From IMG/VR virus record IMGVR_UViG_3300045135_002200, positions 1 to 37,793 of that record: 37,793 nucleotides of DNA, one strand, 5' to 3'. This document shows, piece by piece, positions 2,520-24,606 of this stretch (within the stretch, counting starts at the first letter, position 1; every line of letters starts with the position of its first letter). Source of the DNA: a virus. A program made the translations under genes and the position numbers. Under the pieces are notes generated by a model. It had not been told where the DNA came from and searched no databases. It saw only the letters and a list, made by a program, of their open reading frames with translations.

Positions 2520-3183
2520 AAAAGGACTAGAGGGGCTGCGCGCACCTTTCCCCGCCCACCTGATAGGGAAGCTGCCAAAGCCAACGAAGAAGCAAACAGA
2601 CATTGTAAGGCAGGACTCCCGACAAGGCATTCGCTGTGAGTTGTGCCAAGCATGGCATCACCCAGATGTGGTGCATCTTGATTATGTTGGTCACGCAGCG
2701 CTAACAGATCGGCTGCTTGATGTAGACCCAGAATGGAACTGGTCGCCCGTTGGCAGTGAAGTGCCAGTGTTAGACGGGAACAACGGTATGTGGATAAAGC
2801 TAACGGTGTGCGGAGTGAGCCGATTAGGTTACGGCTCTGCGGGTGATAAGAAAGGTGGCGATGCAACTAAAGAGGTGATTGGGGACGCGCTTCGTAATGC
2901 CGCTATGCGCTTTGGTGCAGCACTGGACTTATGGCACAAGGGTGACTTGCACTTACACCATGAGACTGACGAGACAGAAGAGCAGCCAGAGCCGCAAGCA
3001 CCCCCGCTCAAACTCTATACGAACCAAGAGTTTCAAAATCTCTTTGGTGCGTGGAAGCAGCTTATTGAAATGGGCAAGCAAAGCGTGGATAGCATTTTGA
3101 AAGGCATGGCTGAAAACCACCGCGCCATGACACCTGAACAGCGCCAACAACTAATGAACGTCAAGGGAGTAAACGCAGCATGA
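2509..3183 (+). CDS. Rad52/Erf-like single-strand annealing protein, 224 aa
   Basis: Phage annealing proteins of this kind pair complementary single strands exposed by a partner exonuclease. Residues about 60-145 hold the family-like core: YVGHAALTDRLLDVDP, then GMWIKLTVCGVSRLGYG, and GGDATKEVIGDALRNAAMRF, which resembles the Rad52 DNA-binding segment with its helix of conserved A/R residues. An N-terminal basic stretch and a CxxC-x2-H motif (CELCQAWHH) precede it. The C-terminal third is a charged helical tail after a proline/glutamate linker. The YqaJ exonuclease gene follows with an ATGA overlap, the usual exonuclease/annealase pair. The assignment is by motif and context. Confidence 0.8.
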   Translation: MTAKKGLEGLRAPFPAHLIGKLPKPTKKQTDIVRQDSRQGIRCELCQAWHHPDVVHLDYVGHAALTDRLLDVDPEWNWSPVGSEVPVLDGNNGMWIKLTVCGVSRLGYGSAGDKKGGDATKEVIGDALRNAAMRFGAALDLWHKGDLHLHHETDETEEQPEPQAPPLKLYTNQEFQNLFGAWKQLIEMGKQSVDSILKGMAENHRAMTPEQRQQLMNVKGVNAA

Positions 3184-4637
3184 GAACACTCAATGTAGAG
3201 CAAGGCACACCAGAATGGCACGCAGCGCGAGCCGAGTATCTATTCACCGCATCAGGCGCGCCCGCCATGATGGGCGACTCACCGCACAAAAGTCGTGAGG
3301 CATTGTTGCGCGAACTGGCGACAGGCGAGAAAGAAGAAATATCTGCGCACACACAGCGCATCTTTGACAAAGGCCATGACGTAGAAGAGTTGGCGCGTCC
3401 TATCGCAAGTCGCGTCCTCTTTAACGGCCAATCCCTGCCGAACACGGTAGGCGTATCACTGGTGGCCGAGGGTTTAACGCTACTGGCTTCGTTTGATGGC
3501 TTGAGCGCAGGCAATGAAGTCTGGGAGCATAAACAGTGGAATGAAAAGAAAGCCCACAAGATGCTGCATGAAGATACTCTGTTGCCGGAGTATATGTGGC
3601 AGCTAGAGCACCAGATGCTAGTCGCAGGCTCGACTATCTCATGGTTTCAAATGAGCGATGGCACAGAGGAAAACTGCTATTTCAAACTGTATATGTCTGA
3701 CCCTGCCAAGCGCGCAGAGTTGATTGCGGGTTGGTTGCAGTTTAAAGCCGATCTAAGCGAGTGGCGACCTACCGCCAGTCTGGACGTAGTGCCTGCAACA
3801 ATGGCAGAACTGCCAAAGCTGCACATGGTTGCCACTGGGCAGATCACCCAGAGCAATATCAATGAAGTGGCCGCAGCCGTGAAGCACATTATTGACACCC
3901 GATTGCAAAAGCCGAACACGGACGAGGAATTTGCGCAAGTAGAAGCCTTTACCAAAGCTGCCGCGAAAGCAGCCAAAGCCGCGAAAGACAAACGCACAGA
4001 GTTGTTATCTATCTATCCTGAAATCGCCACACTGGATGACATGGTGAACGCGCTTGATACGGCCCGACTGCACGATCAAAAGTTGGTTCGTACACGCAAA
4101 GATGCAATTCGCTACAGCATGATTGATGTAGCGCGGAGTGAATGGGAAGCGCACAAGATCAAGTGCGAGGCCGAGATAGGCACGACTCTCTGTATCACGA
4201 CCCCTGATTTTAGCGAGGCGATCAAAGGCAAGAAAAACTTTGATTCCATGCAGGACGCGATCAATACCAAAGTCGCCCGCGAGAAAGTCACTCTCACTCA
4301 GTTAAAAGATCAGGCGCTTGAGAACGCAGAGAATCTTCCTGACGGGCTTTCTGTCGATGATGTGCGCGACTTCCTTGATCTAGGTAAAGAGAACTTTGGG
4401 GCGCGTTGTGTGGTGTTACTACAGCAGCGTGAAGCACAAGCCAAGCAGTTAGCCGAGGCAAAAGCAAAAGCAGAGGCTCTAACGAAAGAGCAGCCGAAGC
4501 CGAAGAAGCCAAAGGCCGACCCATTGGTGCAGGAGTTGATGGATTTAATCGCCAGTACAGAGGGCGCAGTAATGAACGAGATTGCAGCGAGCGTTGTTGC
4601 AACCTTTATTCTTGGTCGAAGCAAGCAAGCAGCATAA
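3180..4637 (+). CDS. YqaJ-family phage exonuclease (lambda Exo-like), 485 aa
   Basis: This enzyme should resect 5' strands at double-strand ends to feed the annealing protein encoded just upstream. The nuclease fold lies in residues about 5-205: GTPEWHAAR near 9-17, [10 protein letters not shown] near 23, [11 protein letters not shown] (E69/E70) and the metal site with D106 (ASFDGL), E116 and K118 (WEHKQW). Residues Q141 and Q145 match the trailing conserved glutamines. The C-terminal 280 residues are an extra helical, Lys/Ala/Glu-rich part, longer than the usual exonuclease, with coiled-coil segments near 260-280 and 425-450. Such extensions are common in large YqaJ proteins of phages. Confidence 0.88.
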
Positions 4638-5648: not shown

Positions 5649-5857
5649 TGAGTGATTTATATTTAACAAAAGACGAAGTGGAGCACATTACGGGCAAGAA
5701 GCACGCCAAAGCGCAGCGAGCCGTATTAGCGGCAATGGGGTATAGCGTGAATCTTCGTCCAGACAGTACGTTTTGGGTCCCGCGAGCGCAGTTTCTTGAA
5801 CAGCAAGTGAAGCCGCGCAAGTACAAAATGAACTTGGATGCGCTCAATGTCGCCTAG
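5648..5857 (+). CDS. DUF4224-type protein, possible excisionase, 69 aa
   Basis: ATG 5648 is used because AGAGGTGGG lies just upstream and the codon overlaps the previous stop. The sequence SDLYLTKDEVEHITGKKHAK with AQRAVLAAMGY and a later WVPRAQFLEQ fits the small DUF4224 family, which is typically encoded next to phage tyrosine integrases and is thought to act like a DNA-binding excision factor. It overlaps the integrase start by 20 bases, in keeping with a linked role in recombination direction. Confidence 0.75.
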   Translation: MSDLYLTKDEVEHITGKKHAKAQRAVLAAMGYSVNLRPDSTFWVPRAQFLEQQVKPRKYKMNLDALNVA

Positions 5858-6968
5858 TATCGAGCGTAAGGCGGCAAATAAAGCGTACCCGAAGTATTGG
5901 CGCTTACGCAGGCGGCACAATAAATTCATTGTGTCGTTTCGCGTGCCGACTTCAATCCGCCACTTATGGGAGAACAAAGCCGAGGTCACGCTTGGCTTGG
6001 GCGATACGCAAGCCGAAGCCGAGCGGCAGGCGTTCTACACATGGGCGAAGAAGATACATGCTGACACCACGCCTATGAGCATGGCTGATCTGTTCGATAA
6101 ATATTCAGCCGAAGTTATCCCAGAGAAAAGCCCCAAGACGCAGAGCAGCAACCGAGACAGCATTAAACGATTGCGTGCTGTGTGTGGCGAGATACCCGTT
6201 TTAGCGTACAAAACGCACATGGCGTATCAATACAGGGATGCAGTCGCCAAAACGAAATCAGAGAAAATTGCGAATCTGGATTTACAGGTGCTATCCCATT
6301 GTTTCACCAAAGCCTTTGAATGGGGTGTTGATCTAGTAGAGCACCCAATTAAAGGCAAGGTTACAAAGTTTACGCTGCAAGCGCGTGATCGTTATGTGAC
6401 AGACGAGGAACTGGAGTGGTTCTTGTCAGTCGCCAATCCATTCTTGAACGCTTATATCCCGCTCAAAATAGCAACAGGCAAAGACCAGTCAATGATACTG
6501 GCCATCAAGCTCACAGATATTAAAGAGGATAGTCTGTTTTTCCCGAAGCGGTTTAAGACCGAGGGTAAGAGTAAGAATGTCAAAGCGAGTTCCATGCCGT
6601 TCATGCACAACGGCCAAAGCACAGGCTTAAAAGAAATACTGGATGGCATTCTGCTCTGGCGCAAGAGCGTCAAGAAAGCATGGAACAGCGAGTATTTGTT
6701 TGTGGCCCGTACTGGTCTGCCGTACTTCGATGGCAAAAACAACTCAGCATTTAAGTCGATCTGGCAGCGCGCCATGACTAAAGCACTAAAAGACACAGCG
6801 CTAACCGAGAAATTCACGGAGCATGATCTTTGCTCTAAAACCGCGAGTGACGTAGAGACAGTCGAAGAGGCAGCGCGATTGCGCGGCCATACCAATCTGC
6901 GCACCACCACACAAAACTACCGAGTGAAGCCGGAAACGGTCATACCCCATAAAAAAAAGGACCAATAA
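5838..6968 (+). CDS. int: Phage tyrosine integrase, catalytic arginines replaced, 376 aa
   Basis: The layout is that of a phage integrase: an arm-binding N-terminus (residues 15-70), a core-binding helical domain (82-180) and a catalytic domain (185-370). In the catalytic domain the segment TGKDQSMILAIKLTDI aligns with the usual TGxRxxDLLxL, putting D216 where the first catalytic Arg belongs. EHDLCSKTASD aligns with HDLRAK, putting C332 (TGC at 6831) in place of the second Arg. The later LRGH (H351) and nucleophile Y361 (TTTQNYRVKPE) are intact, and Lys candidates occur near 237-250. The gene runs from an ATG inside the preceding DUF4224-type gene. The fold is confident, but activity is doubtful. 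Confidence 0.88.
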   Translation: MRSMSPSIERKAANKAYPKYWRLRRRHNKFIVSFRVPTSIRHLWENKAEVTLGLGDTQAEAERQAFYTWAKKIHADTTPMSMADLFDKYSAEVIPEKSPKTQSSNRDSIKRLRAVCGEIPVLAYKTHMAYQYRDAVAKTKSEKIANLDLQVLSHCFTKAFEWGVDLVEHPIKGKVTKFTLQARDRYVTDEELEWFLSVANPFLNAYIPLKIATGKDQSMILAIKLTDIKEDSLFFPKRFKTEGKSKNVKASSMPFMHNGQSTGLKEILDGILLWRKSVKKAWNSEYLFVARTGLPYFDGKNNSAFKSIWQRAMTKALKDTALTEKFTEHDLCSKTASDVETVEEAARLRGHTNLRTTTQNYRVKPETVIPHKKKDQ

Positions 6969-9568: not shown

Positions 9569-9789
9569 TGGTGGCACTCACCGTTGTTGTTCTGATGATG
9601 CTCATTGCGGGCATCATTAAGACAGGCAATCTCGTGCTCGTTTTCCCTATCCTGTTCTTTATCTATCTACTCATGGACCATGAAAAGAAAGGCAAGCCCG
9701 ATAACAGTATAGATGCGCTATTCGGACTGCTCTTCTTTCTTGGTCTGGCGGGTGTACTACTGCGTATGCTAGAAAGCCTCTTCCGTTAG
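9568..9789 (+). CDS. Small membrane protein, 73 aa (holin-like size)
   Basis: GTG 9568 overlaps the previous stop as TAGTG, and GTG 9571 is also possible. Hydrophobic segments are residues 2-18, 22-36 and 50-68 (DALFGLLFFLGLAGVLLRML), with a charged loop between the second and third. Size and topology would suit a holin, but no endolysin gene is visible nearby, so this stays open. Its 3' end overlaps the end of the convergent giant gene by 21 bases. Confidence 0.6.
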   Translation: MVALTVVVLMMLIAGIIKTGNLVLVFPILFFIYLLMDHEKKGKPDNSIDALFGLLFFLGLAGVLLRMLESLFR

Positions 9790-12700
9790 TTTTGAAATAC
9801 GCTTGCTTAACTCATTCTTCTTCTTACGCAACCGCTCGATCTGACTGCGCTTCATCGAAGCAGAGTAGCGCGTACTCTTGGTGATACGGTCAATTTCCTT
9901 ATTAAGCTGACCAAGCTGCTGACGCGCACGCCCTAGCGCACCGCGATATTTCAGCTTGCCACCGCTCTCTGTTCTAAGCTCGCTTGCTCGCGCATAATCC
10001 CCGTCTTTCTGGTAGGCGCGAATCGTGCGGTAAATCTCGTCTACTTCTTTCGTGCGCTCATATAGATCAGTGGCGTACTGCGTTGTCTTAGCGTTCTTCG
10101 TGCCGCGATACAGCGCCTTAAAGACAGGTAGCTCGTCAATCGTCCAGTCTGGCTTAACAGGCTTGCCCGTTGCCCAGTCTACCGCCAAGTCTGCACCGCC
10201 AAGCGCATAAATACCCAGTGTGCCAGTGTAGCCTTTCCAAAGATGCTCAAGCTCTTTAGGCGATAAACCAAGCCATGCCGCAGTATCACGCAGCGCGACA
10301 GCCGTTGAACTGGTGCGCGAGTTAAAGCGGGCCGATTTCAATTTACCCTCGTCTGACATACCCTCGATAGGCGTGCCAAAGAAGAATGACTTATTCGCAA
10401 TCACTTCTGCAACAGGCATTACGGCCTGCGGAATCGGGTTAACATTCAGGGTGTGCATGATGTTGTGCGCGAGTGACCACGTTAATTTACTGCTTGGCTG
10501 ATTACCAAGAGCGACATGCGCCATACGTTCCGGCATCGTGCCAAAAATAATACCAATCTCAAACGGCTTAGGTATGCGGAAATGATGATCGCCCATAAAG
10601 ATATGCCAGTTTGCGTCTTTATCCCAATCTGGTAACTGCTCGTATCTTTCTTCGTCATCATTGAGAAACGCAAGTGCCACACTCCACATTGCAATCTTCG
10701 CGCCTGCGGCTGCAACTGCACGCCAATCATCCCTAGAGGCTCGGCCCAGTTTATTGAGGCCCTGTAGTCGCGCATTAAGGAAAGGCACAAAGTCCGTAAA
10801 GAATGTCAGTGCTGCAAAGTTTCCGCGCAATGAGTAGTCCATCAAGTCTTTTGATTCATAGACCGCCTGCGCCAATGGTTTGCCTGCGGCTAATGCTTTC
10901 TTGAACGTGCCTAGTCGGTTCGCGTTCTCCACTTTATCGCCCCATCCTCGGTAGGTCTGCCAACCATTTGATAGTGCGCCTTTCATCTTCTCTTTGGTGT
11001 TTAGCTGCGAGTTCTCGTAATCGTCTAGCGTCTTGCCTTTCAAACCTTTCGCTTCTAGCGCCCTGCGCACAATATCCGCTGACGCATTAGGGTCTGTGCC
11101 ATGCACATAGCCACCCTGAAAAGACGCGCCCGCAAACATGAGCGTTCTATAATCTTCATCCTCTTTCCATGCGTGCTTCATGCCCTCCCACGAATCAACA
11201 CCAAACTTAAACTGGTCTGGGTTGATCGCCCAAGCATGTACCGCATCCCTGATAAAGTTACGCACGATAAAGTCAGGCGAGGCCGTGACACCCGTTGTTA
11301 AGAGTCGCTTAAAGTAACGCGCTCCGCGCATCATTGTACTGTTAGAGCTTTGCGAATCCATGCTCGTAAACGCCCGCAACAAGGACGGTTCATGCACTCG
11401 GTAATACTCATTCTTCCCGTTACGGCTGACGCGAATCACATCAGGGTCAGTCGGTGCGGTAATCGCCCACATCATTTCATAAGACTGGCTATCTAACTTC
11501 GCCACTTCGTCTATGATCTGCTCTTCTGCGGTATCGCGCTCAAAGCCCAATACCTCGGCCACCTGCCGCCTAAACTCTCTATCCGCTTTGATACGCTTGT
11601 TCAGATCAGACTTAGGAATCGCGGCTTGCGTATAGCGCATAGTCTCATTCTGTAGATCGTCCGTATCTTTCAGATTATCTACCGCTTTGAGTAGCGCGCT
11701 ATTTTTCATGGCGCTGTCTGTGAGCTTAATCCAGTTCGTGAGTATGTTGCTCAATAGATCATTGGTTGGTAGCGTGCCACCAATTAACTGTCGAACACCC
11801 GCGCTCTGGTGTGATAACCCTCGCTTGGTTCGCGGTCCTAGCAACGAACCACCATCTACGTCTGCTTGACGATAAAACGGTATGTAATATTCTGACTCCC
11901 ATTCTGCGCGTGATGCAGCGTCAATTAGCCCTGCTTCTTCGCTCAAGTCGAGCATGGCTTGGTTGATCGCCTTATATGCCTCGTGCGCCTGCTTAAATGC
12001 CGCCTCTTTACCTTTCGCCTTATCAAGCCCTGTCTGTATATTCTCTTCGGTCAGGTTGTTTTCGCGCCCCTGCTCCATTAGCTCTTGCGCACGTTTACTG
12101 CCCATCCATGCAAGCCAGTCGTTCAGGTCAGGCCCAAGCTCTGCGAATATCTCCATCAAGCCCTGCGTACCCTCTTTGTACTGAATAATCCCGTCTTTCC
12201 ATTTCGGTGCGCCATATTTCAAGATGCCGCTCATTACATCGGCAACACCTGTTGCGAGTCGTGCGCCCACATAGCCAGACTTCGCCATGTCCGTCACGCC
12301 TGCGCGATCTTCGGCACGCTTCAATCCCACCATGCCATCAAAGAAGCCCTCATAGCCTCGCTGATACACTGACCATTCAGGGTTAAACAGGTTATCGACT
12401 ATCTCACGGATAATGTCGTATATCTTTTGCATTAGCGTCTTGGCTTCGGGAGCGGATAAACCCATCTTCTCCATTAGCTCTTGATCTTCTAGTACGCGCT
12501 CACGCGAGAACATCACGGAGTTGGGGTTTTTCTGGTACTTCGGATTTTTAACAAGCACCGTTGGCCCGACTTGGATTAGTTCATCACCAGATACTACTTG
12601 CTCCATTGTGTCTGCATTGTAGTAATAGCTTCTGCGCTCTGGGTCAAAGCCCACCTGAACCCAGTCTTTTGATTGCATGGCTTTCTGTGCGCGTGCGTAT

Positions 12701-15700
12701 AGCGATTGTATAGGCTCTTTATTCCACTCGCCTTTAATCTGCGCGAATGGTGATTTCGCTTCACCCATTGCCACCTTTAATGCCGCCTTGCCATAGCCCT
12801 CTTCTTTCAAGACAGGGTTGCGCACGCCCGCAATAGGTACATAGCCGACAGTGGCAGAACCTTTGTGTACCGTTGGAATCCAAACGCCATGATTTGTATA
12901 GGCCGGAATATCCAGTCTGACACCCACACGCTCGCCATCTTTAAGTGCGCTAGTCGCACCAATCTTCGGCACTTTGTTGGAGGCAAGCGCTTTACGCATA
13001 TCTGCAACAGACGCAATCTTAGGCAATTCATCCCGCGCAGCAGCAGGCTTGTTCGCGTCCTGTATGCGGTTAAATTCAGCCTTAGTAATCTCGCCCTTTT
13101 CAAAGCGCTTGGCCGCAGCTTGAATGGCAGGCACACGTTTAGCAGCCTCTTTGTGATTCATGCCGATACGTGAATTTTCACGATCACGCGAGAAGCGCAC
13201 ATCACTACCACCGCCACCAGAGGGAGGCGTTGTATCATTTTTAAGTGCTTTACGCGCACCGCTCAATACCGCAAACAGATCAGTTTCGCCCATCTTACTG
13301 AGCTTGATAAAGCCATGCTTGTTTAGCCATGCCCGCAACAGGCCGATCAATTCTTTGATCTTGCGCTTCACACTTGGGCGGCTCTTTTGCGCCATGTGCG
13401 CCAGTAGCTCGTCCATCAGCATGAGGTCGATATTTTCTACGTCATGCCCCTCAAGCGCAAAGCCCTCAATGTAATCGTTGATGACTTTCTCCGTGAAGCC
13501 GTACTGCTCACCAAACTTTATGACACCCTTGCGGCCACCAATCGCCATAAAAATCTCGCCCAATTTGGACTTAAACTTTTGACCAAAGAGCTTGCGTACA
13601 CCATAATGGCCTAGCGCTTCATGCAAGATACTTTCTTCAAGCAATCGCTCTGTCTTGTGCATATCACGAACGAGGTAAATCGTATCGACATCGTTATCGA
13701 ATACAGCATATACCTCGTCTGTGCCCTGATTGGCGGCTATGTCCTTTATCTTTTGCGGCAGTTGTTCAAACGTATCAACAAGCGTAATGACGCTGTTAGC
13801 GCCACCCCACTTCCCAGTAACACGCCTGATAACTTTATCTGCCTGCGCTGCGCTGATCGCACCATCGCTCTTCGGGGTCGCACCACGTTGACTATTGATA
13901 CGCCCCTTAGAGAATCGGACTGAATCTGAAAGGCGCGATACATCTGCGCCCAGTGTTTCCAGTAGTTGCTTATTCGGGCTTGGCGCGCCCTCTGGCAGAG
14001 AATCTACTTTCTCAATTTTGGCGTTGCCTGCTTCAATGTCCACATCTGTGCTGTAAGTATAAAGATGGACGTACTCGCCTGTAGACTGCTTGATTGCAGG
14101 TAAAGCCGCACCTCCGATAGAGTCAAATTCAACACCGAGCGTTTTAAACGTATCTCCCTCATGCGACACAGTAACAGGTTTAAGGTTTTCCATATTAAAC
14201 TGCGTTCTGCTGACGTTGCGCTTGGTGTCTGAGTCAATATACTTGTTCGGGGTTTCCCCTCTGCGTATCTGCTCCTGAATGTCTGTCAGCCTCTCTTCCA
14301 CCGATAACCAGTTATTCAGTTTGACAGCATCTTGCGCAGCGGCCTTTTCGCTTGAAATGTCGCCCTCCATTAGAATCTCGGCATTTTTTAACGAGTCGCG
14401 CATCGTGCGCACATTGCTTTCTGCCTGCGCTTTCGCAGTCGATAGTCTGGTTTTAGCTGTGGATAGATCAAGTAGATTAAGCAGGCGCATAGAGCCTGTC
14501 ACAGTCGAGATAGGTGACACATCAGAGTGGTGCAGATCATGTTTCCCATTATTGCCTGTCAATGTCACGGTTGCGCGATACGATGGCGAATCATCTTTAT
14601 CTGCCGCCATGCTTAGACGGTCAAAGGAAACAGACACGCCATACCCGTTCCCTATATCTACCGAGCCTGACCAGTTCTCACCATCTTTCACCGCTGCTGT
14701 TGCCGGATTGATAATGCGCTCTTTCACCATATCAGCATACGGATGATCTATCGTAAGCAAAGAGGGTGTTTTTGGTCTTTCTGGCTTCTTCTCTTTCTTC
14801 TTCTGATCTGGCTCTAGCCCGCTCCAACGGTCACTCGCCTCTCGAAACTCATCCATTGCCAATTCAAACGACTGCTGCTGCTCTTGCATTATGTCAGCGT
14901 ACTCGCCTAAATCGAAATCTGCGGCAGCAAAATTATCAACCAACGGGATAACAGCCTCATACCGCGCTATCTTATCAGGGTATGTTTCTAGCGTACTTTC
15001 TGCCCCTCGTTGGCTAGAGGCTTTCGCTAAGTAGGTGGTCATCTTATTGGCTTTATCTAAATCGCTTTGCAGCTTCAGCTTATAGATTGGATTACCTGTT
15101 GAGCTTGCCTTGAAATTCGCATAGCTGTCTGCGTCACTCGCGGAATCATCCACAAATTCATCAAGCCCACCAGAGCGGAATTGCTCAATCGCTTTCGCTT
15201 TGCGCTCCAATATCTGCCACATAACAGGGTCGCTTGAGCCTTGTGTCGCATACGCCACAATCTCGACTTCAAACCCGTCAGGGTCAGCCGCATACAGCAT
15301 ATTACCCTGTCGGATAATGCGCCCCTCGCGCTGTTCCATGTCGGACGGTCGCCACGGTGCATCCATGTGATGAAGCGCCACTAATCGCTTCTGTGCGTTT
15401 GTACCCGCGCCCATCTTTTGCGAACTACCAAGCAATACCCGTATCTCACCATTATTGACCAGATCAAACAATTCCTGCTTCGCATCTACCGTCTTATAGT
15501 CATGGATAAACGCGATTTCATTTTCAGGTATGCCCGACTCCATCATCATGGCTTTAAGGTCATCGTAGACACTAAAGCCTGTGTCGGCTGTCAGCACCGT
15601 ACTCTCAAGCTCGCGCATCATATCCTGCACTTTTTCGGCCTTATCGCCTGTCAGCCCCTCACTCTCCAGTACGCGATTTACTTTTTCAGCAATATCCCGA

Positions 15701-18700
15701 AATGTCATGCTATACGCATCCGTATCGTACAACTCCAATCTACTGCGCACATACGCTGTCGCTTCACGGCTTGGCATAACACCCTTAGCCAGTGCCACTA
15801 AATCGGCCCGCGCATTTTTCTCTGCGGTTTTAGCAGGCGTACCCATATCACTAAAGATAAGTTGCGTGCCTTTCACAGAATCATACTGGTCATAAATGCG
15901 CTTCACGTTTTTCGCTGCTCGCGCTACCTTACCTGTCGGGTCACGAGGCAGCGTTGGGTCTACTAGCCGTGAGTCGAGCGAGGCTTTCTTTGCATCACTC
16001 AATACCCATAAAGGATTGTCGATCTTAGAATATTCTCTGCGCTCTTCCCTGCCTGTAATCGCCTGTATGCCTTCCATGCGCGCAATCAGGTAATCGTTAT
16101 AGCGTTTTTGAGACTCGGTAGCCTCGGCCATATCAAGCTGACGCTCACCGCCTTTTATGTTCGGAATTGGGAATCGCGTACTCTTGCTTTCACCTGTTTT
16201 TTTGTTCTGCTGTTGTACGTCCTCTGCATAGATATTCACCATATCCTCACGAGTAATAACATCACCCACCTGACGATATAAAGCAGAAAGCGCTTTGACA
16301 TTATGAATGCCCTTTAAGACTCTGCGTTCTTTGATCGTGCCTGTTGGCGTATATTCTAGCGCTGTATCTGTACTTAAAAACGAGCCTGCAAACGCATCAA
16401 ATTGCGCAATATCCATTTCTTTCAACTGGTCATACTGGAGGTAATACATCATGGTATAAACCTCGACCAAGCTGTTACTGATAGGCGTACCCGTCATATA
16501 GGTGACACCGCCATTTTCAAGCGATTGAATGTCGCGCAGCTTCACCAGTAGATCGAGCGCACGATCAGAACCCGCAGGCGAGTTCATGCCCACCACCTGA
16601 TCGCTTGATGTAGAGTAGGTTAAGTTCTTAAATTCGTGCGCCTCATCGACCACAAGATAGTCAAAGCCTACGTCCTCAAACTCAAAACCTATATCATCCC
16701 CTGCACTCTCCAAGCTCTTTTTCTTGTCTTTCAGCTTGTCGTTCAGGCGCGTAATCGCCTGCTCAATCTGACTAACAGAAGAACCTCGGCTTCCACTCTC
16801 TTTCGCTTGATTTCTCGCCTCTTCTAACGCTTCTCGATACTCTGCAATCTTGGCGTTAATAACGCGCTCAAACGACTCATAAGAATTAGGCAGCGCTTTT
16901 AAGTGGGAGTGGCCCATGATGATTGCGTCATAGTCGCCCGTAGCCGCACGCGCAAAAAACTGCTTACGATTTTTGGCGCTCATCTGTTTTTCCGAGGCGA
17001 CTAGAATGTTTGCTCCTGCATACAATTCGTAAAAGTCAGCCGCAAAACTCCCGATAATATGATTTGGTACGGTAATCAGGGGCTTTTTACTTAACCCTAA
17101 TCGTCTGCGCTGCATCACTCCGCTAATCGCTGTAAAGGTCTTGCCTGCGCCTACCGTATGATCGAGCAATACAGACTTCGACATGACCATTCTGGCCGCG
17201 CCATCCAACTGCGTTTTACGCATTTCAATAACTGGATTTTGACCAACTGGCTTGAAGTACAAGCGCCCGTTGTATTTACGCTCTGCTTGCGTATTAACAC
17301 GATCATTAAAGTTTTGCGCCACCGTGATCTGGGTGGCTTCGTTGTTCTGCACAAAGGTTTCAAACGCAGAAGCAAGGTTGTTTATGAGTAGGTTGACTTG
17401 CTTTGTACCCTCTTCGTCCTTTCTACGATCAGAACTTGGCCCTTCGTAGATCACTAGAGACTTGCCATTTGCTGCTGCATTAAAGAGTTCGATAACACTC
17501 TTATGGTCATTCTTAAACTGCGCGCCTATCTCGGTGAGCGCGCCTATTGAATTACCCTCGGCCATGATCTTGCCGAGCTTGCGGTTAATGCTTACTTTGA
17601 TGGCTTTCCCGCCAAGCGCTTCAAGAAAATCCTTAAATACTTCGGCATCCACCCAAGGAGCGCGGATAGAGGCTTTTACTTTATCCACCGGAATATCCGC
17701 AGGAAGCACTCGCTCTAGGTGCTTAATGTTGGCATCTAGTCCCTGCTCTTGCGCCAGTTTGTACTTGGCTTTTACATTGCCTGACAAGTAATCGTCTACA
17801 AAGTCATAGTCGCCCGTTTCAGGGTTTAGGAATAGGTATGGCGAGTCGCCAGTCGTTAGCTTCTCTTTCGCCTCGCTGCGCGATATGCCCATTATTTTTG
17901 CGACATAGGACAGATCAATCTTGCCGTTTTCCTGCATGGAAAAGCTAACAGCATCATCAACCGTCTTAGCGGAGCTTGGTTTTTTGTAGGACTCAATGAC
18001 GCGCCCATCAAAGATAGCGTGTTTGCTGATCTTGCCGCTCGCTTTGTTAAACGAATCCAAGCCCGATTCAATACCCAAGTCGCCACGCAACAAACCGAGG
18101 TTGTCATCAATGGAGGCCGTTTTGGTTTTCGTGCTGTGCTCCAAGACAAACGCATCGTACTGCTGATTGAGCTTTTTACGCAGCGCGTTCATTTCTTTGA
18201 GGTCTTGCTTTTCTGCGCGTATCAGAGACAGTGCAGTATTGCGCATGTTTAGAATAGATTTTAGCTTTCGATACTTGGCATCCCCTAAACGCGATGTAGC
18301 GCTATCCAAAAATTTGCGCACTTCAAGCTGCATGGCTGCTTTGCTCTTGCGCCCCTGCACATAATCCTCAACCGCTTTAAACGCCTTATTATTGGCTTTT
18401 AGTTTGCCTCGCGTATTGAGTAGCTTTTCTTTGTAGGTTTTCTCAATCACAAAATCATTTTGCGAAGTCAGGCCATCTAGTAGCCGCGCATTATCTGACC
18501 ATGCTGTTTTACTGGTGACTTCAACCACGTTCGCACCAGAGCCGCTATCCTCTTCGCGTAGTAAGATTTTGCCTTTGTCGTTGAGCATCATGCCGCCTAC
18601 AGGCAAGTCACTCTCTGATAGCAGCACCTCACCGCTTAGGCTGTCTTGCTCTTCCGCTGTCAGTGTCAGGTCCACACCGTCAGCCATCTTTTTCATAGCC

Positions 18701-21700
18701 TTAGCAATCGCGGCTTGCAAGTCGCTATGCTCGTCTGTCGGATGGACCGTCAACTCCCCGCCTGTACGCTCACCGTACATCGTGCCATCCATTGCTGCGC
18801 GACCAAGCACCATGTCGGGATTGTCGATGAAATATTGATTCATCTTCACGCCATTGGCTTCACCGCTATTGTTCGTCCAGACAAGATTCTTAGACTGCTC
18901 ACCCTTTTTCAACTTACGGAACACCACAATATCAGTCGTGACTTCTGTTCCGGCATTTGACTTAAAGGCTGTATTAGGTAGGCGCACAGCCCCGACAAAC
19001 TCCATAGTCTTGCTGAGTTGCGCGTGATTTTGGTTCTTGGTGTCCAGAAAGTTCTTGGTGATGACCATCATCATCAAGCCGTTGTCGTGCAGCAGTTTGG
19101 CGCTCTTAGCAACCATGTAGTTATGCAGACTTAGCCCTGATATGTCTTTGTGCTTGTCGTCATAGATCGGGTTTGCGCCAAAAGGCGGGTTGCCGATAGC
19201 AAGGCTAAAGACGTTCTCTTTAAAGCCTGCATCTTGAAATCCTTTAACCTGAATGGTGGCATCATCATAGATCAGGCTTGAGATAGTGCCTGTAATGGTA
19301 TCAATCTCACTGGCGAACCAGTCAGAGTTCTCGCGCATATCTGCGGGCTGCCAACCTATAAAGTTACCAGAGCCGACCGATGGCTCAACAATCCGCATCT
19401 TAGAATCATTCAAGCCAAACGCTTCAACACCTGCCCACATACCTTTTACCACATCCTTAGAAGTGTAAAACGCAGTCGTGATCGAGGCGCGAATGTTGTT
19501 GTATTCGGTTTCAGTAACGAGAGACTTTAATTCGTTGTTCGCATCTTGCGCGTATTTGCGCGTAGTTCTGGAATCGAACACTTCACGCAAGCCACCCCAT
19601 CCCACATAGCGGGCAAGGGTTTCTTTCTCTTGCAGAGTTGCTTTGCGCTTTTCTCTGACAAGCTGTTTGGCTAATCGTATTGCTGACAGGTTCGCTTCAA
19701 CACGCTCTTTTGGCGTGCCATTGGCTACCCCCTCAACATCATCAAGATTTAGGCTTGATGTTTCAGTATCACTCGCACCGCTTCGCTTTGTGCTTGAGTT
19801 GCGTCCACCCCGACTCCCACCAGAGCTTCCGCTTCTGCTGCCGCCATTTTTCCGAGTGCCACTATTTCCCGTTCCCGCATTGTCTTGCTCATTTCCTGAT
19901 ACTTCGGATTGTTCATCAGTGCTTGTGCTATCTGTTCCTGCATCGTCACTTTCATCGTAGTTATCCCCTACAATTTCATTTTCGTTATTGGTGTCTGGCG
20001 TATCATTCACCACTTCCTCTTCTAATGAAAGAGAATCTAACACATCATCAATATTGGCCGCTTCTACTTCTGCCGCCCCGCTCAGGCCCTCAAACTCTTG
20101 CGTTCTTGGGTCATACTTTGCAGCCATATACCACGATTTAAGGTATGGCTTAACCATATCACCTAAATCATTCACCATCGCCTTAGAGTAGGCGGCAAAG
20201 GTTCTCGCGCCCTTTTCTATATGATAGCCTGCTAGGGTTATGCCTGCCTGCACTAGCTCAGGGTCAAGACCGCTATTCATTTGGCCTAGCTTGGCTTTCA
20301 GTAAAGCGCGCGCCTTTTCTGCTGCATCCTCGGTGAACACAGTATTTTTTGATACGCTTGGTTTTTCTGGCTTTTGAGGCTTCTCAGGTTTAGCCGCAGT
20401 CGGTGTCTCTTCGGCCTGCTCTTCGGCTTTCGCCTCTTCCAGTAGCGCATCCCAATCGGCCATCATAGCCGCCACTTCGTCATCAGAGGGTATGTCGCTT
20501 AACTCTTGCTCGTCCAATGCTGCCATTTCAGCATCCATTTCAGCATCAAAGTCATCGTCCGATAATGCACCCTCTACTTCCGGCTCTACTTCTTGTACAG
20601 ATTCCTGTTCAACTGGCTCTATCTTTTCTGTTCCGGCAATCTGCGCATCCGTCCACTCAGACATAGGCGGCAAGTAGTTGATTGGTGTCTTAGCGTTGTA
20701 ATCATCGGCCAGTGCTTCATCAATTTTTGGCAATATCTTTTCTAACACGGACGCTTCTTTGCTTGTCCATGCCATGTGCGCCAAGTCTCGCGTAGGTATT
20801 TTATCGTGAAAGATGATGTTGTGATGTGCCAACTGCGCATACAGCGCTACCGCTTTCCATGCGTCCTCACGCCACCCATCAAAGGCGATAGGCGCTAAAT
20901 CAATACCCTCAAACTGCGGGGTGATGCGCGCCTCTGTGCTGCCATGCGCCTCTCTAAACTCATCAAACTTCTGCTGCGACTCAAAGACAAAGCCACCATG
21001 CGCGCCACCGCCATCTTTGCCTAGCCCTTTTAGCGTGCTCGCTACATTACCCGTTGATTGCGCGCCCCACTGTTGCGCTAAGGCTTTCATTTCCGGCAAG
21101 GCGTACACTTTGCGCGGCACATAGCCACCGCCAAGCTGTACTGATAGCGTGCTAACATCGTAGTCTGTAGTAGACATAACAAAGCGCAATCGCGTCTTGG
21201 ACGCTTGCATTAACGCTTCGCCCTCTAAAGGCGGGTCTACGTCTGCTTTGTTATCTGATTCTTGCGACTTGTTAGGCGCTAACGGCTTGAGAATTGAACC
21301 GTTCGGTTTCTTAATGTCTTTAAAATCTTCATCAAAGAGATAGCTTTCTGCGCTGTCCTTATCTGCCGGAGTGAGCGTTTTTCGTCCCACCATTTCACGG
21401 AATTGACGGGCGTTAAAGTTATCACCGACACGCTCCGCTTCTGCAAGCGCGTTTTCAGCTAACCATTGGTCAACGCGAGATAGCGTGTTGGCTGTTTTAA
21501 TGCGCGTAGAGGTATCGACTTTCGGGAATGGCGTTGTGCTTGCGCCAGAGGTTGTTAAAAGCACTGTGCCTTGCGCGTAGAGTTGATCTTGCTGATACGG
21601 TTGCGGCTTGCTTTCGCTCGACTTGTCCTTGTCGCCCTTGCGCCACTTCATGTAGTCCGCATCACTCACCTCAATATCTCGGTCAGCATCAAAGACTTGT

Positions 21701-24606
21701 TGGCGGGCTTTGCGTAGCTCTTTCTCCAGAGAAGCGCGCTCTGGCGTACCCTCTTTGGCGCGCTTCATAGCACGCTTAATGCGCGTTACTTCCCGCTCAC
21801 CAATCGTCTTGCCTGTCGGCTTATCCTCGTCTGGCTTGGTATCGGGTTTCGTTTCTGCGGTTGGCGGGTCCGTTAAATCTAGTTGGTTCGGGTTAGCATC
21901 TGCCGGACGATTAGAGCCTATTAACGAAAAGCTATTCGTCTGCTCGTCAATCTTGGCTTTGGCTTCGTCCTGCTTCTTCTTGCGCTTCGCTTCTGCAATT
22001 TGCGCTTCACGTTCAGCAAGTTCCTGCTCCGTGTAAGATGTTAAGAGTCCTGTTCCAGTTCCTTGATTCTGTTCTTCAACTCGCTCGCCTTGTACGTTTT
22101 GAGCTTGAGCTTGCCCTCCTGACGTAGCGCTAGTAGTCGCTCCGCTTCCGCTCGCAGTTGCTTCACTCGTTTCTGAAAGATTGCTTTCTTCATACTGATT
22201 ACCTTGTTCTCGTCTGTCATCGTACTTTCCTGAACGAATAAGCGCATATATGCTTGAGGCTAGAGCTTCCGCGCTGTCTGCCTGCATTTCTAACTCGTCT
22301 AGGGCTTCTTTGGGTACACCTGCATGACGAGCCGTTTGAATGGCCTCAACTGCTAGTTGCTCAGAGTGGCTTAGTTCTAGGTCTGCGTCAAACTCGCTTT
22401 GGTCGATTTCATCCATGTCATAGTCAAAATTAGGCGCATCTTGCGCTGCATCCCATGACGGGGAATCTTGCTGTGCTGCCGTTAGGCGCTCTAGTAACTG
22501 ACGCTGCTTACGCTGCTCGCGCTTCTGCTCGCGCAACTCGCGTGTGTACGCCAAGTTCTCGTCACTGTTATGCCCTGCATCTATTTCATCCATCAGCATG
22601 GAGATAATGCGCGCTTGTCGTGAACCTAACGCCTCGCCCTTTAACGCCTTATCAACCGCACGTTTTACATCGTCCGTTGACGCGCCTGTAGCCGCCAACA
22701 AATCTTGCCCCCACTGAGGATTAGAAGAAGATGTGCGCCCAGTAATTACGCCATGCTCATTTCTGACATACGCAATACCGCCACCCTTAACCAACTCTTT
22801 CACCATGACGGGCAGTACGTCTTGATAGCTGCGCTTACCCTCACGCAAAAAGCGCTCGTCCGTTAAGCCTTGCGGCAAGCGCTCTTGGCGCTTCTGCTTG
22901 GTCTGTAGGCGGTCATAGTCATCTTTATACTTATCAATGATCGCTTCGCCACCGCGCACCTTGTCTACGCTATTGCTGACAACCTCGCGTATCTCGTCTG
23001 GGTCAGAGTCCATGCGAGGCGTAATAGGGAAAAGCGCCTGCTCGTCCATGCCATTATTGAGATTGCCTTGCGGAGTGACTGTGCCCTCTAGCTTGTCTTG
23101 TGGTGGTGGTAGTTGTTTTTGCTGTTCTGTCAGGGTTGGAATCTGGCTTTCTGTAACTGCGCCCGTACCACCTTGATCTATATTCTGCTGTACTTGTTTC
23201 TGCCGCTCTTCACGGCTTAGACCGCTACCAGACAGCAAGCCCTTGTTGCCGATTGGTGCAAATTCGTCACGCACCTTAGCTTGTCGTTGTTCGCGTGCTT
23301 CCGTACCGCTAAGAATATCCTCTTCGCGCATATTAAAAGGCGTGTTATCAAGCGGCTTGCCTTGCGCATCCAACTCGCCCTGCACCGCGCCTTGTCGCTG
23401 ACCTCTTAAAAAGCCTGCTTGATCTGGTGTAAGTTCGTCACGCTCTGCGACAGGGTTAAGCTGTGCTGTAATTGCATCGAGTCGTCTTTTGCGCTGCAAT
23501 GCTGCTGATACCGCTTCATCACTGTTCGGGTCAAAGCCCTCAAGCACACTATCGGTTAATGGGTCAGCCGTATTGACGACCTCTTCACTTCCCGCTACCG
23601 CCTGATCGAGCGCATCACCACCCTTGTTTGCTGCATCTTCGCGTGCCTTTTTCACACGCTCACCGCGATTGCTTACGCCCTCAATCGCGCCAAACATCGC
23701 GCCACCAACTGAACCCGCACCAAACGCATCAAAATATTGGCGCTGCTGCTCGCTTGAAAAGAGCGTTCGGTTATCGTCAATCCATTTCTTTGCGTGTTCT
23801 TCGATAAGTTCCTGCGAGGCTTCCGTGATGCCCTCAAGCGCCATTTGCTTGCTCATCGACTTAACGATGCCATCTTTAGCGACATCCATTAGCTCTTCGC
23901 TAACACCCATTTTCCGCAAGAATCGTAACGGAACAATCGAGTCAAGCACACCCATCGCTGCGCCATGCGTAAAGGCCGTTTGCCACTTACTGCCCTCGCC
24001 CTCAACGTCTTGTAGCTCGCCCATGACAGAGCCTTGATTTAACGGGATATTGGTTAAATTCTCGCCAACCAGTGCGCCCGCGCTTTTTGCCATCATTAGC
24101 TTTTTCGTGGCTGCTTTTTGCGCAACTTCTAACGCAACGCCTTTTTCTACTTCTTCTTTGACGTACTTCTCTAATCCTTTTTCGACCAGTTTGCGCCCTG
24201 CAACTGCACCAAATCCACCGCCCGCAATCGAAGTAACAGCAGTTGGGATAACTTGCCCTGCTGTAAACGCCAACCAGTCTCCGAAATCTTCCGCACTACC
24301 TACATCACTAAGTCTTGCAAAGCCCGCATTTTCCTCGGCTTCGGCCATGTTCTCGTTATAGGTATCTAAGCCCCAACGCTTGACCGAATCTGCGCCAAAC
24401 GCATCACCTAGCATAGCGACAAAACCACCGCCCATCGCCTGCGTGGAATCAATGCTAGACAGCAAGCCTTTCGTAAACTGGCTACGCTCCCCGCTGCCAC
24501 CCTCTCCCACTATTGGCTCTGGTGCATAGCTGCGAAAGCCCCGCCCTCCGCTCTGCTCGTTCAGGCCCATTTCTTCGTCAAACTCGGTCCAGTCGTAATT
24601 AGACAT
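9769..24606 (-). CDS. Giant polyvalent virion protein: methylase, SNF2 helicase, zincin, LPD38-like, 4945 aa
   Basis: It belongs to the DarB-like polyvalent proteins, carried in the virion and thought to enter the host with the DNA and protect or remodel it. Visible parts in order: hydrophobic segments near 111-137; long disordered, charged linkers up to about 1620; a gamma-type N6-adenine methyltransferase (about 1640-1900) with EPSVGSGNF near 1740 and NPPF near 1805; an SNF2/DEAH helicase (about 2470-3150) with GAGKT near 2485, DEAH near 2653 and QREGRIIRQG near 3091; a zinc metallopeptidase motif HEALGH near 3662; a conserved segment near 3950-4030 (RRSYYYN...ELIQVG); an LPD38-type region near 4430-4750 (SPDFIVRNFIRDAVHAW, then FVPFLNARLQGLNKLGR); and a basic coiled-coil end. 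All catalytic motifs look intact. It is the last gene of the leftward virion operon. P1 DarB, for comparison, is about half this length. Two other reading frames are nested within its linkers. Confidence 0.93.
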   Translation of the reverse strand: MSNYDWTEFDEEMGLNEQSGGRGFRSYAPEPIVGEGGSGERSQFTKGLLSSIDSTQAMGGGFVAMLGDAFGADSVKRWGLDTYNENMAEAEENAGFARLSDVGSAEDFGDWLAFTAGQVIPTAVTSIAGGGFGAVAGRKLVEKGLEKYVKEEVEKGVALEVAQKAATKKLMMAKSAGALVGENLTNIPLNQGSVMGELQDVEGEGSKWQTAFTHGAAMGVLDSIVPLRFLRKMGVSEELMDVAKDGIVKSMSKQMALEGITEASQELIEEHAKKWIDDNRTLFSSEQQRQYFDAFGAGSVGGAMFGAIEGVSNRGERVKKAREDAANKGGDALDQAVAGSEEVVNTADPLTDSVLEGFDPNSDEAVSAALQRKRRLDAITAQLNPVAERDELTPDQAGFLRGQRQGAVQGELDAQGKPLDNTPFNMREEDILSGTEAREQRQAKVRDEFAPIGNKGLLSGSGLSREERQKQVQQNIDQGGTGAVTESQIPTLTEQQKQLPPPQDKLEGTVTPQGNLNNGMDEQALFPITPRMDSDPDEIREVVSNSVDKVRGGEAIIDKYKDDYDRLQTKQKRQERLPQGLTDERFLREGKRSYQDVLPVMVKELVKGGGIAYVRNEHGVITGRTSSSNPQWGQDLLAATGASTDDVKRAVDKALKGEALGSRQARIISMLMDEIDAGHNSDENLAYTRELREQKREQRKQRQLLERLTAAQQDSPSWDAAQDAPNFDYDMDEIDQSEFDADLELSHSEQLAVEAIQTARHAGVPKEALDELEMQADSAEALASSIYALIRSGKYDDRREQGNQYEESNLSETSEATASGSGATTSATSGGQAQAQNVQGERVEEQNQGTGTGLLTSYTEQELAEREAQIAEAKRKKKQDEAKAKIDEQTNSFSLIGSNRPADANPNQLDLTDPPTAETKPDTKPDEDKPTGKTIGEREVTRIKRAMKRAKEGTPERASLEKELRKARQQVFDADRDIEVSDADYMKWRKGDKDKSSESKPQPYQQDQLYAQGTVLLTTSGASTTPFPKVDTSTRIKTANTLSRVDQWLAENALAEAERVGDNFNARQFREMVGRKTLTPADKDSAESYLFDEDFKDIKKPNGSILKPLAPNKSQESDNKADVDPPLEGEALMQASKTRLRFVMSTTDYDVSTLSVQLGGGYVPRKVYALPEMKALAQQWGAQSTGNVASTLKGLGKDGGGAHGGFVFESQQKFDEFREAHGSTEARITPQFEGIDLAPIAFDGWREDAWKAVALYAQLAHHNIIFHDKIPTRDLAHMAWTSKEASVLEKILPKIDEALADDYNAKTPINYLPPMSEWTDAQIAGTEKIEPVEQESVQEVEPEVEGALSDDDFDAEMDAEMAALDEQELSDIPSDDEVAAMMADWDALLEEAKAEEQAEETPTAAKPEKPQKPEKPSVSKNTVFTEDAAEKARALLKAKLGQMNSGLDPELVQAGITLAGYHIEKGARTFAAYSKAMVNDLGDMVKPYLKSWYMAAKYDPRTQEFEGLSGAAEVEAANIDDVLDSLSLEEEVVNDTPDTNNENEIVGDNYDESDDAGTDSTSTDEQSEVSGNEQDNAGTGNSGTRKNGGSRSGSSGGSRGGRNSSTKRSGASDTETSSLNLDDVEGVANGTPKERVEANLSAIRLAKQLVREKRKATLQEKETLARYVGWGGLREVFDSRTTRKYAQDANNELKSLVTETEYNNIRASITTAFYTSKDVVKGMWAGVEAFGLNDSKMRIVEPSVGSGNFIGWQPADMRENSDWFASEIDTITGTISSLIYDDATIQVKGFQDAGFKENVFSLAIGNPPFGANPIYDDKHKDISGLSLHNYMVAKSAKLLHDNGLMMMVITKNFLDTKNQNHAQLSKTMEFVGAVRLPNTAFKSNAGTEVTTDIVVFRKLKKGEQSKNLVWTNNSGEANGVKMNQYFIDNPDMVLGRAAMDGTMYGERTGGELTVHPTDEHSDLQAAIAKAMKKMADGVDLTLTAEEQDSLSGEVLLSESDLPVGGMMLNDKGKILLREEDSGSGANVVEVTSKTAWSDNARLLDGLTSQNDFVIEKTYKEKLLNTRGKLKANNKAFKAVEDYVQGRKSKAAMQLEVRKFLDSATSRLGDAKYRKLKSILNMRNTALSLIRAEKQDLKEMNALRKKLNQQYDAFVLEHSTKTKTASIDDNLGLLRGDLGIESGLDSFNKASGKISKHAIFDGRVIESYKKPSSAKTVDDAVSFSMQENGKIDLSYVAKIMGISRSEAKEKLTTGDSPYLFLNPETGDYDFVDDYLSGNVKAKYKLAQEQGLDANIKHLERVLPADIPVDKVKASIRAPWVDAEVFKDFLEALGGKAIKVSINRKLGKIMAEGNSIGALTEIGAQFKNDHKSVIELFNAAANGKSLVIYEGPSSDRRKDEEGTKQVNLLINNLASAFETFVQNNEATQITVAQNFNDRVNTQAERKYNGRLYFKPVGQNPVIEMRKTQLDGAARMVMSKSVLLDHTVGAGKTFTAISGVMQRRRLGLSKKPLITVPNHIIGSFAADFYELYAGANILVASEKQMSAKNRKQFFARAATGDYDAIIMGHSHLKALPNSYESFERVINAKIAEYREALEEARNQAKESGSRGSSVSQIEQAITRLNDKLKDKKKSLESAGDDIGFEFEDVGFDYLVVDEAHEFKNLTYSTSSDQVVGMNSPAGSDRALDLLVKLRDIQSLENGGVTYMTGTPISNSLVEVYTMMYYLQYDQLKEMDIAQFDAFAGSFLSTDTALEYTPTGTIKERRVLKGIHNVKALSALYRQVGDVITREDMVNIYAEDVQQQNKKTGESKSTRFPIPNIKGGERQLDMAEATESQKRYNDYLIARMEGIQAITGREERREYSKIDNPLWVLSDAKKASLDSRLVDPTLPRDPTGKVARAAKNVKRIYDQYDSVKGTQLIFSDMGTPAKTAEKNARADLVALAKGVMPSREATAYVRSRLELYDTDAYSMTFRDIAEKVNRVLESEGLTGDKAEKVQDMMRELESTVLTADTGFSVYDDLKAMMMESGIPENEIAFIHDYKTVDAKQELFDLVNNGEIRVLLGSSQKMGAGTNAQKRLVALHHMDAPWRPSDMEQREGRIIRQGNMLYAADPDGFEVEIVAYATQGSSDPVMWQILERKAKAIEQFRSGGLDEFVDDSASDADSYANFKASSTGNPIYKLKLQSDLDKANKMTTYLAKASSQRGAESTLETYPDKIARYEAVIPLVDNFAAADFDLGEYADIMQEQQQSFELAMDEFREASDRWSGLEPDQKKKEKKPERPKTPSLLTIDHPYADMVKERIINPATAAVKDGENWSGSVDIGNGYGVSVSFDRLSMAADKDDSPSYRATVTLTGNNGKHDLHHSDVSPISTVTGSMRLLNLLDLSTAKTRLSTAKAQAESNVRTMRDSLKNAEILMEGDISSEKAAAQDAVKLNNWLSVEERLTDIQEQIRRGETPNKYIDSDTKRNVSRTQFNMENLKPVTVSHEGDTFKTLGVEFDSIGGAALPAIKQSTGEYVHLYTYSTDVDIEAGNAKIEKVDSLPEGAPSPNKQLLETLGADVSRLSDSVRFSKGRINSQRGATPKSDGAISAAQADKVIRRVTGKWGGANSVITLVDTFEQLPQKIKDIAANQGTDEVYAVFDNDVDTIYLVRDMHKTERLLEESILHEALGHYGVRKLFGQKFKSKLGEIFMAIGGRKGVIKFGEQYGFTEKVINDYIEGFALEGHDVENIDLMLMDELLAHMAQKSRPSVKRKIKELIGLLRAWLNKHGFIKLSKMGETDLFAVLSGARKALKNDTTPPSGGGGSDVRFSRDRENSRIGMNHKEAAKRVPAIQAAAKRFEKGEITKAEFNRIQDANKPAAARDELPKIASVADMRKALASNKVPKIGATSALKDGERVGVRLDIPAYTNHGVWIPTVHKGSATVGYVPIAGVRNPVLKEEGYGKAALKVAMGEAKSPFAQIKGEWNKEPIQSLYARAQKAMQSKDWVQVGFDPERRSYYYNADTMEQVVSGDELIQVGPTVLVKNPKYQKNPNSVMFSRERVLEDQELMEKMGLSAPEAKTLMQKIYDIIREIVDNLFNPEWSVYQRGYEGFFDGMVGLKRAEDRAGVTDMAKSGYVGARLATGVADVMSGILKYGAPKWKDGIIQYKEGTQGLMEIFAELGPDLNDWLAWMGSKRAQELMEQGRENNLTEENIQTGLDKAKGKEAAFKQAHEAYKAINQAMLDLSEEAGLIDAASRAEWESEYYIPFYRQADVDGGSLLGPRTKRGLSHQSAGVRQLIGGTLPTNDLLSNILTNWIKLTDSAMKNSALLKAVDNLKDTDDLQNETMRYTQAAIPKSDLNKRIKADREFRRQVAEVLGFERDTAEEQIIDEVAKLDSQSYEMMWAITAPTDPDVIRVSRNGKNEYYRVHEPSLLRAFTSMDSQSSNSTMMRGARYFKRLLTTGVTASPDFIVRNFIRDAVHAWAINPDQFKFGVDSWEGMKHAWKEDEDYRTLMFAGASFQGGYVHGTDPNASADIVRRALEAKGLKGKTLDDYENSQLNTKEKMKGALSNGWQTYRGWGDKVENANRLGTFKKALAAGKPLAQAVYESKDLMDYSLRGNFAALTFFTDFVPFLNARLQGLNKLGRASRDDWRAVAAAGAKIAMWSVALAFLNDDEERYEQLPDWDKDANWHIFMGDHHFRIPKPFEIGIIFGTMPERMAHVALGNQPSSKLTWSLAHNIMHTLNVNPIPQAVMPVAEVIANKSFFFGTPIEGMSDEGKLKSARFNSRTSSTAVALRDTAAWLGLSPKELEHLWKGYTGTLGIYALGGADLAVDWATGKPVKPDWTIDELPVFKALYRGTKNAKTTQYATDLYERTKEVDEIYRTIRAYQKDGDYARASELRTESGGKLKYRGALGRARQQLGQLNKEIDRITKSTRYSASMKRSQIERLRKKKNELSKRISKLTEEAF
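19749..19955 (-). CDS. Nested ORF in giant-gene linker, 68 aa helical protein
   Basis: This frame lies wholly inside the giant gene, same strand, +1 relative to it. ATG 19955 is preceded by AGGGGA eight bases upstream. The product (MKVTMQEQIAQALMNNPKYQ, then SKTMREREIVALGKMAAAEA and QAQSEAVRVILKHQA) looks like an ordinary folded helical protein. Over the same bases the giant protein is a Ser/Gly/Asn/Asp-rich linker (residues about 1551-1619). That contrast is what overprinting predicts, with the nested frame constrained and the host frame free. Function is unknown. The alternative is a chance open frame within low-complexity DNA. Confidence 0.55.
   Translation of the reverse strand: MKVTMQEQIAQALMNNPKYQEMSKTMREREIVALGKMAAAEAEALVGVGVDATQAQSEAVRVILKHQA
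22041..22220 (-). CDS. Nested ORF in giant-gene linker, 59 aa basic coiled-coil protein
   Basis: Also within the giant gene and in the same +1 frame. The start ATG 22220 is set by AGGAAAG just upstream (AGGA, seven bases, ATG). A longer frame from 22247 has no such site. The product (MTDENKVISMKKAIFQKRVK, then QLRAEAERLLALRQEGKLKL and KASELKNRIKELEQDS) is Lys/Glu/Leu-rich and heptad-like, as in small DNA- or protein-binding phage proteins. The giant frame here is a Ser/Thr/Gly/Gln linker (residues about 796-855). Existence is supported by composition and ribosome site, not by homology. Confidence 0.55.
   Translation of the reverse strand: MTDENKVISMKKAIFQKRVKQLRAEAERLLALRQEGKLKLKTYKASELKNRIKELEQDS

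Follow-up and report, generated by a model that had tools for sequence, protein, structure and literature searches.

Methylase-helicase giants of the DarB type are thought to enter the cell by injection alongside phage DNA. To our knowledge, overlapping phage genes are known mostly as isolated cases. DarB-like polyvalent proteins have been described with a methylase-helicase dyad (Iyer et al. 2017, PMC5512222), and a search of the text of that paper found no mention of overlapping genes or of a gene in another frame. Small accessory proteins, Ulx among them, belong to the Dar system of phage P1 (PMC9024508, PMC12810830); Ulx is listed as helping DarB localization (PMC9024508). A DarB-like giant is carried in the virion of phage JC1, as found by mass spectrometry, and the same phage has an embedded Rz/Rz1 pair (PMC9144972); JC1 is one of the relatives analysed here, and the virion finding applies to it and not to the locus described below. 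Through de novo overprinting in viruses and bacteria, a single stretch of DNA also comes to encode two proteins, one of which is disordered in that part (PMC8227390). In the open-access papers searched, we found no report of an overlap in the linker of a DarB-like protein.

A DarB-like giant and the frame nested in its linker

The window, by which we mean the whole 37,793-base virus record that was analysed, contains a giant gene of 4945 aa at 9769-24606 on the minus strand. By its domain matches, its product is a DarB-like polyvalent protein, with a predicted adenine methylase and a SNF2-type ATPase within a single very long protein that also carries LPD38, similar to the methylase-helicase dyads already described. 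Among the Pfam matches, LPD38 scores far over its cutoff, SNF2-rel_dom and Helicase_C barely over theirs, and Eco57I slightly under (23.2 vs 25.3). ORFs neighbouring the giant match head and portal families. Elsewhere in the window, positions 3180-4637 (+) encode a RecE-like exonuclease (phrog_7655, E 2e-102).

Along the giant, a conserved domain (NSGLDPELVQAGITLAGYHIE..YLKSWYMAAKYDP; 20056-20406 (-)), 76% identical in locus L003 and 68% in L004, is followed by a Ser/Gly/Asn linker at 19749-19956 (-), comprising residues about 1551-1619 (DESDDAGTDSTSTDEQSEVSGNEQDNAGTGNSGTRKNGGSRSGSSGGSRGGRNSSTKRSGASDTETSS). The VGWGG motif of the methylase lies near 19605, with the Eco57I-like adenine methylase domain at 19021-19245 (-) (Pfam residues 1788-1862) and the SNF2-type ATPase domain at 16609-17181 (-) (Pfam residues 2476-2666). 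The initial annotation had placed in this linker a same-strand, +1-frame ORF of 68 aa with an AGGGGA ribosome site, and the sequence bears this out. The ORF runs from ATG to stop at 19955-19749 (-), coextensive with the linker and entirely within the giant ORF at an offset of +1, and the Shine-Dalgarno-like AGGGGA (19964-19969 (-)) is 8 nt upstream of the ATG. A second possible overprinted ORF of 59 aa, as yet unproven, is found at 22041-22220 (-) in another Ser/Gly/Thr linker, where an open +1 frame has AGGAAA before its ATG; it has no homologue among the fetched loci.

An open frame of this kind could arise by chance in a low-complexity linker and go untranslated. When we shuffled the synonymous codons of the giant gene 500 times, the shuffled giants each contained a mean of 2.35 ATG-started alternative-frame ORFs of at least 68 aa, and the span 19955-19749 was still open in 382 of the 500. 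Because shuffles yield such lengths by chance, the length of the ORF is no evidence for a gene, and the case for one therefore rests on comparison with relatives. The chance reading also draws on the tblastn searches of phages, in which neither the window protein nor its homologue from locus L002 found a match. The predicted structure argues against it. An AlphaFold2 model of the window protein, built from 23 aligned rows, is compact and all-helical (pLDDT 91.4, pTM 0.74).

Small genes at the linker site of related giants

In each of three viral loci found by a first search, an alternative frame of this region holds a nested ORF of good composition. Searching with the aligned upstream domain yielded 80 viral loci and 16 genome loci, and a second nested family used as query added 16 more. 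Of the 134 fetched loci, among which some contigs occur twice, 118 contain a nested ORF that matches a profile, located in the linker region ahead of the methylase or SNF2 module. All 126 nested-profile hits fall within a long ORF in frame +1, as do, in the same frame, four further hits listed as partial, whose loci end shortly after the hit. Sixteen loci lack a profile match; two of these are PBC5, in which an indel splits the giant, three (L072, L082 and L109) carry family K, and several of the remainder have Shine-Dalgarno (SD)-led +1 ORFs that are unconfirmed candidates.

The nested proteins fall into at least nine sequence families without detectable similarity between them. Two are large, family B (MYQVPxxxWNxIA..) and family C (MNLNNWIELGRQHWKE..); A, E, F, G2, H, J and K are smaller. 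Relatives with an unannotated small gene at this site are spread over many phages and prophages. An extra gene inside a linker had been proposed as a rarely described layout; the layout is present, but it recurs across many phages and is occupied by several unrelated small-gene families. No stand-alone copy of a nested gene was found in phages, in plasmids or in the 298 and 369 sampled genomes.

Window and L002 nested proteins are 28% identical over 57 aa (blastp E 1e-6, in a single comparison), with a global score of z 6.8 that 0 of 1000 shuffles equalled. L002 scores z 7.3 against L122, which itself scores z 9.6 against family C (HMM E 4e-9); compared directly, window and family C give a weak z of 1.5. 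These scores suggest that the window ORF joins family C by way of L002 and L122, with only distant similarity. The interval from nested gene to methylase motif is 146 nt in the window and 131 nt in L002, a common position. The nested frame also aligns better than the host frame (16 identities and BLOSUM 73 vs 10 identities and BLOSUM 20), which argues against a chance open frame, as does the conservation of nested genes at this site among relatives. A scan of viral_contigs with the window-L002 alignment yielded none that was confirmed.

Searches of structure and family libraries gave no convincing match for these proteins. The family B model has eight helices (pLDDT 92.6). At E 0.001, Foldseek returned nothing from BFVD for the window and family B models, nor from PDB for family B, and the best VIA-align Z values (7.7 for the window model, 3.3 for family B) are within the range usual for helical bundles. 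No nested protein scored above cutoff against Pfam or NCBIfam, and none had a convincing match among the PADLOC families, a library of defence proteins with few anti-defence ones. PHROG 938, labelled 'endolysin', was considered for family C and set aside: the match covers the profile's last 102 positions, which we read as PBC5 orf33, a CDS in which an indel has run the upstream part of the giant and the nested frame together.

We inspected the annotation of 18 phage records (Skulduggery, Parlo, Ruegeria 45A6, Vibrio 1.232.O, ZX1, PBC5, BcepIL02, Atu_ph08, JC1, Pavtok, USP_18, POI1126, BKO1-TP3, Y7, Mwe-JY07, Itty13, LASTA and DC1). None has a separate CDS for the nested ORF; BKO1-TP3 has no nested hit at all. 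In PBC5 (L010, about 3068-3336) the nested sequence forms the C-terminal end of the annotated orf33, because the indel joins the frames. In Itty13 the CDSs annotated over the nested stretch are on the other strand, and in a Comamonas plasmid the nested copy lies under the LPD38 CDS. A relative with a broken nested frame and an intact linker would have spoken against the initial annotation; none was found. PBC5 presents the reverse, a split giant with the nested frame intact, although the split may be a sequencing error.

Other +1 ORFs were seen in these giants. L030 (1437-1707) and L074 (1830-2043) have another nested pair elsewhere in the giant (E 1e-7, differences 25/12/30). Short basic +1 ORFs ending ..KPLG or ..QPMG in L032 (399-555), L063 (1746-1971), L078 (2721-2940) and L085 (1479-1806) show an excess of differences at nested position 3 (31/21/54). 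Short upstream +1 ORFs in L003 (about 2640-2773), L066 and L079 have a KQALVKLAKLPxxKRKRLMxLEAQ-like sequence in common (E about 0.03). Finally, a +1 ORF in L067 (2650-3099) resembles an HNH homing endonuclease; Pfam gave no match to it at 0.01.

Selection on the two frames and signals for translation

Counted by nested codon position (1/2/3) over close pairs independent of one another, differences numbered 113/108/210 in family B and 118/99/232 in family C. We estimated omega by scoring each difference for its effect in both frames, using four pairs from B and eleven from C. Nested omega was 0.32 (0.18-0.38) in B and 0.19 (0.13-0.24) in C, with both intervals below 1; host-linker omega was 0.72 (0.22-1.08) and 0.99 (0.64-1.63), respectively. 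Counted by host codon position in family C, differences were 56/37/208 upstream, 156/54/50 inside the nested gene and 71/45/245 downstream, so that the codon periodicity flips within the nested gene. In 99% of the family B pairs and 91% of the family C pairs, identity was higher in the nested frame than in the host frame. In the measurable families, these patterns indicate that selection maintains the small protein and that the overlying stretch of the giant drifts almost freely.

A screen of 4072 alternative-frame ORFs, unguided by the families, returned eight nested-constrained groups, all in frame +1 and none in frame +2. The printed representatives of these groups lie within about 1.5 kb past the upstream domain, except L014, whose nested ORF (5670-5991) is further downstream than the others. 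In a laxer screen, pairs with z above 2 numbered 455 in +1 vs 9 in +2.

The proposal that the linker is free while the nested frame is constrained is thus supported in relatives, where the codon-position comparison of both frames points to purifying selection on the nested frame and a near-neutral giant linker. For the window we infer constraint from distant homologues, because window and L002 are saturated at the DNA level (nested-position differences 36/26/36) and close relatives of the window are absent from the loci found. Its ORF presumably has the same properties as its relatives.

Start signals bear on how the nested frame would be read. Families A-C provide 74 distinct nested starts; 70 of these are ATG, and an SD core is found at 61 (82%), vs 9% of background +1-frame ATGs. 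A programmed frameshift from the giant, producing a truncated fusion in place of internal initiation, would account for a phase that is constant throughout, and it would fit PBC5, where the upstream part of the giant runs straight on into the nested frame. A conserved start Met with its SD core argues against such a fusion, as does a nested-frame stop immediately upstream of the start in L006 and L009. We consider frameshifting highly improbable.

What exceeds chance expectation is the nested-frame homology, the recurrence of a small gene at one place and in one frame across more than 100 related loci and the codon constraint in the two large families. An untranslated chance frame appears improbable on these grounds. 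We therefore favour, at a rough probability of 85%, the reading that 19955-19749 (-) is a real overprinted gene, expressed by internal initiation on the mRNA of the giant. Ribosomes would bind the message of the DarB-like giant at the Shine-Dalgarno site that belongs to the nested gene, start there and produce a small, soluble, all-helical protein. The disordered linker of the giant would then be a by-product of reading the nested gene in the other frame.

Possible function, origin and comparison with known systems

The nested families sort by the module that follows them. Family B precedes the SNF2 module (41 loci have that motif next), with the GKT motif 164-236 nt past the hit, mostly at 209-212, and families C, A, E, F and J lie ahead of the methylase wherever a motif is in reach. 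This sorting could reflect either functional pairing or simple linkage. By analogy with the P1 Dar accessory proteins, the small protein may serve the methylase-helicase module encoded just after it as a dedicated partner, either helping its assembly or inhibiting it; we offer this tentatively, as somewhat short of an even chance. Such a partner, made together with the giant, could hold the giant inactive, or serve its loading into the virion or its ejection. More speculative is the general form of this idea, in which the giant methylase-helicase genes of many phages and some plasmids obligately carry an overprinted linker gene, from at least nine families, as a matched partner controlling the loading or activity of the injected giant.

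Two accounts of origin differ in which frame came first. The small gene may be the older, an upstream gene and a methylase-helicase gene having fused across it so that the linker is the young frame; we regard this as plausible, if not quite an even bet. Near-neutrality of the linker over a constrained nested protein favours this account, and the small gene sits directly ahead of the enzymatic module, with a family that tracks module type. The failure to find a stand-alone or unfused copy in phages, plasmids or the sampled genomes weighs against it. The Acidovorax plasmid pACP4.3 has a family-E copy (L135 5304-5594) annotated as a hypothetical protein of its own, WP_162290891, with the methylase CDS annotated from 5897, after the copy; yet no stop interrupts the methylase frame from 4870 on, so that it spans the copy, and the annotated start at 5897 may be placed too late. 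We rejected this copy as a stand-alone ancestor in conjugative plasmids on account of that open frame.

Alternatively, the small genes may have been born de novo, several times, in a pre-existing disordered linker, and may act as small effectors, such as anti-defence proteins, instead of partnering the giant, which we think possible but slightly less likely. The lack of unfused copies together with the many unrelated families favours birth inside the linker, and newly arising overlaps on the same strand are expected to favour phase 1 (PMC2542354). The strict sorting of families by downstream module instead suggests a tie to the giant, and the PADLOC comparison, limited as that library is in anti-defence proteins, provides no convincing match for an effector.

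If the nested gene is real, as we favour, it has partial parallels in known systems. The P1 Dar system is similar in that a small protein is made with a DarB-type giant; in a P1-like record, however, the presumed Ulx gene is separate and downstream of darB, whereas the genes described here are nested. Homology to Ulx also found no support: the 146-aa gene presumed to encode it from its place next to darB showed no similarity to any nested profile. Embedded Rz/Rz1 spanins likewise have one phage gene entirely within another, on the same strand and in another frame, but with a different host gene and a different type of protein. An Rz1-type spanin was excluded for the window protein, which has no cysteine, hence no lipobox, and is modelled as a helical bundle.

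At a single site in one giant gene family, more than 100 sampled loci have a small gene, from several unrelated families and in a single phase, providing a ready data set on the origin and persistence of overlaps. These genes also hint at a component of DarB-type systems that may have been missed, and they represent a class of gene thrown out by standard annotation. They differ from the de novo overprinted genes described previously (PMC8227390) in that one site holds several unrelated nested families in a single phase, with the host part near neutral. Overprinting itself is of a known kind; what appears to be new is a single linker site repeatedly filled by different constrained small genes across a giant-gene family.
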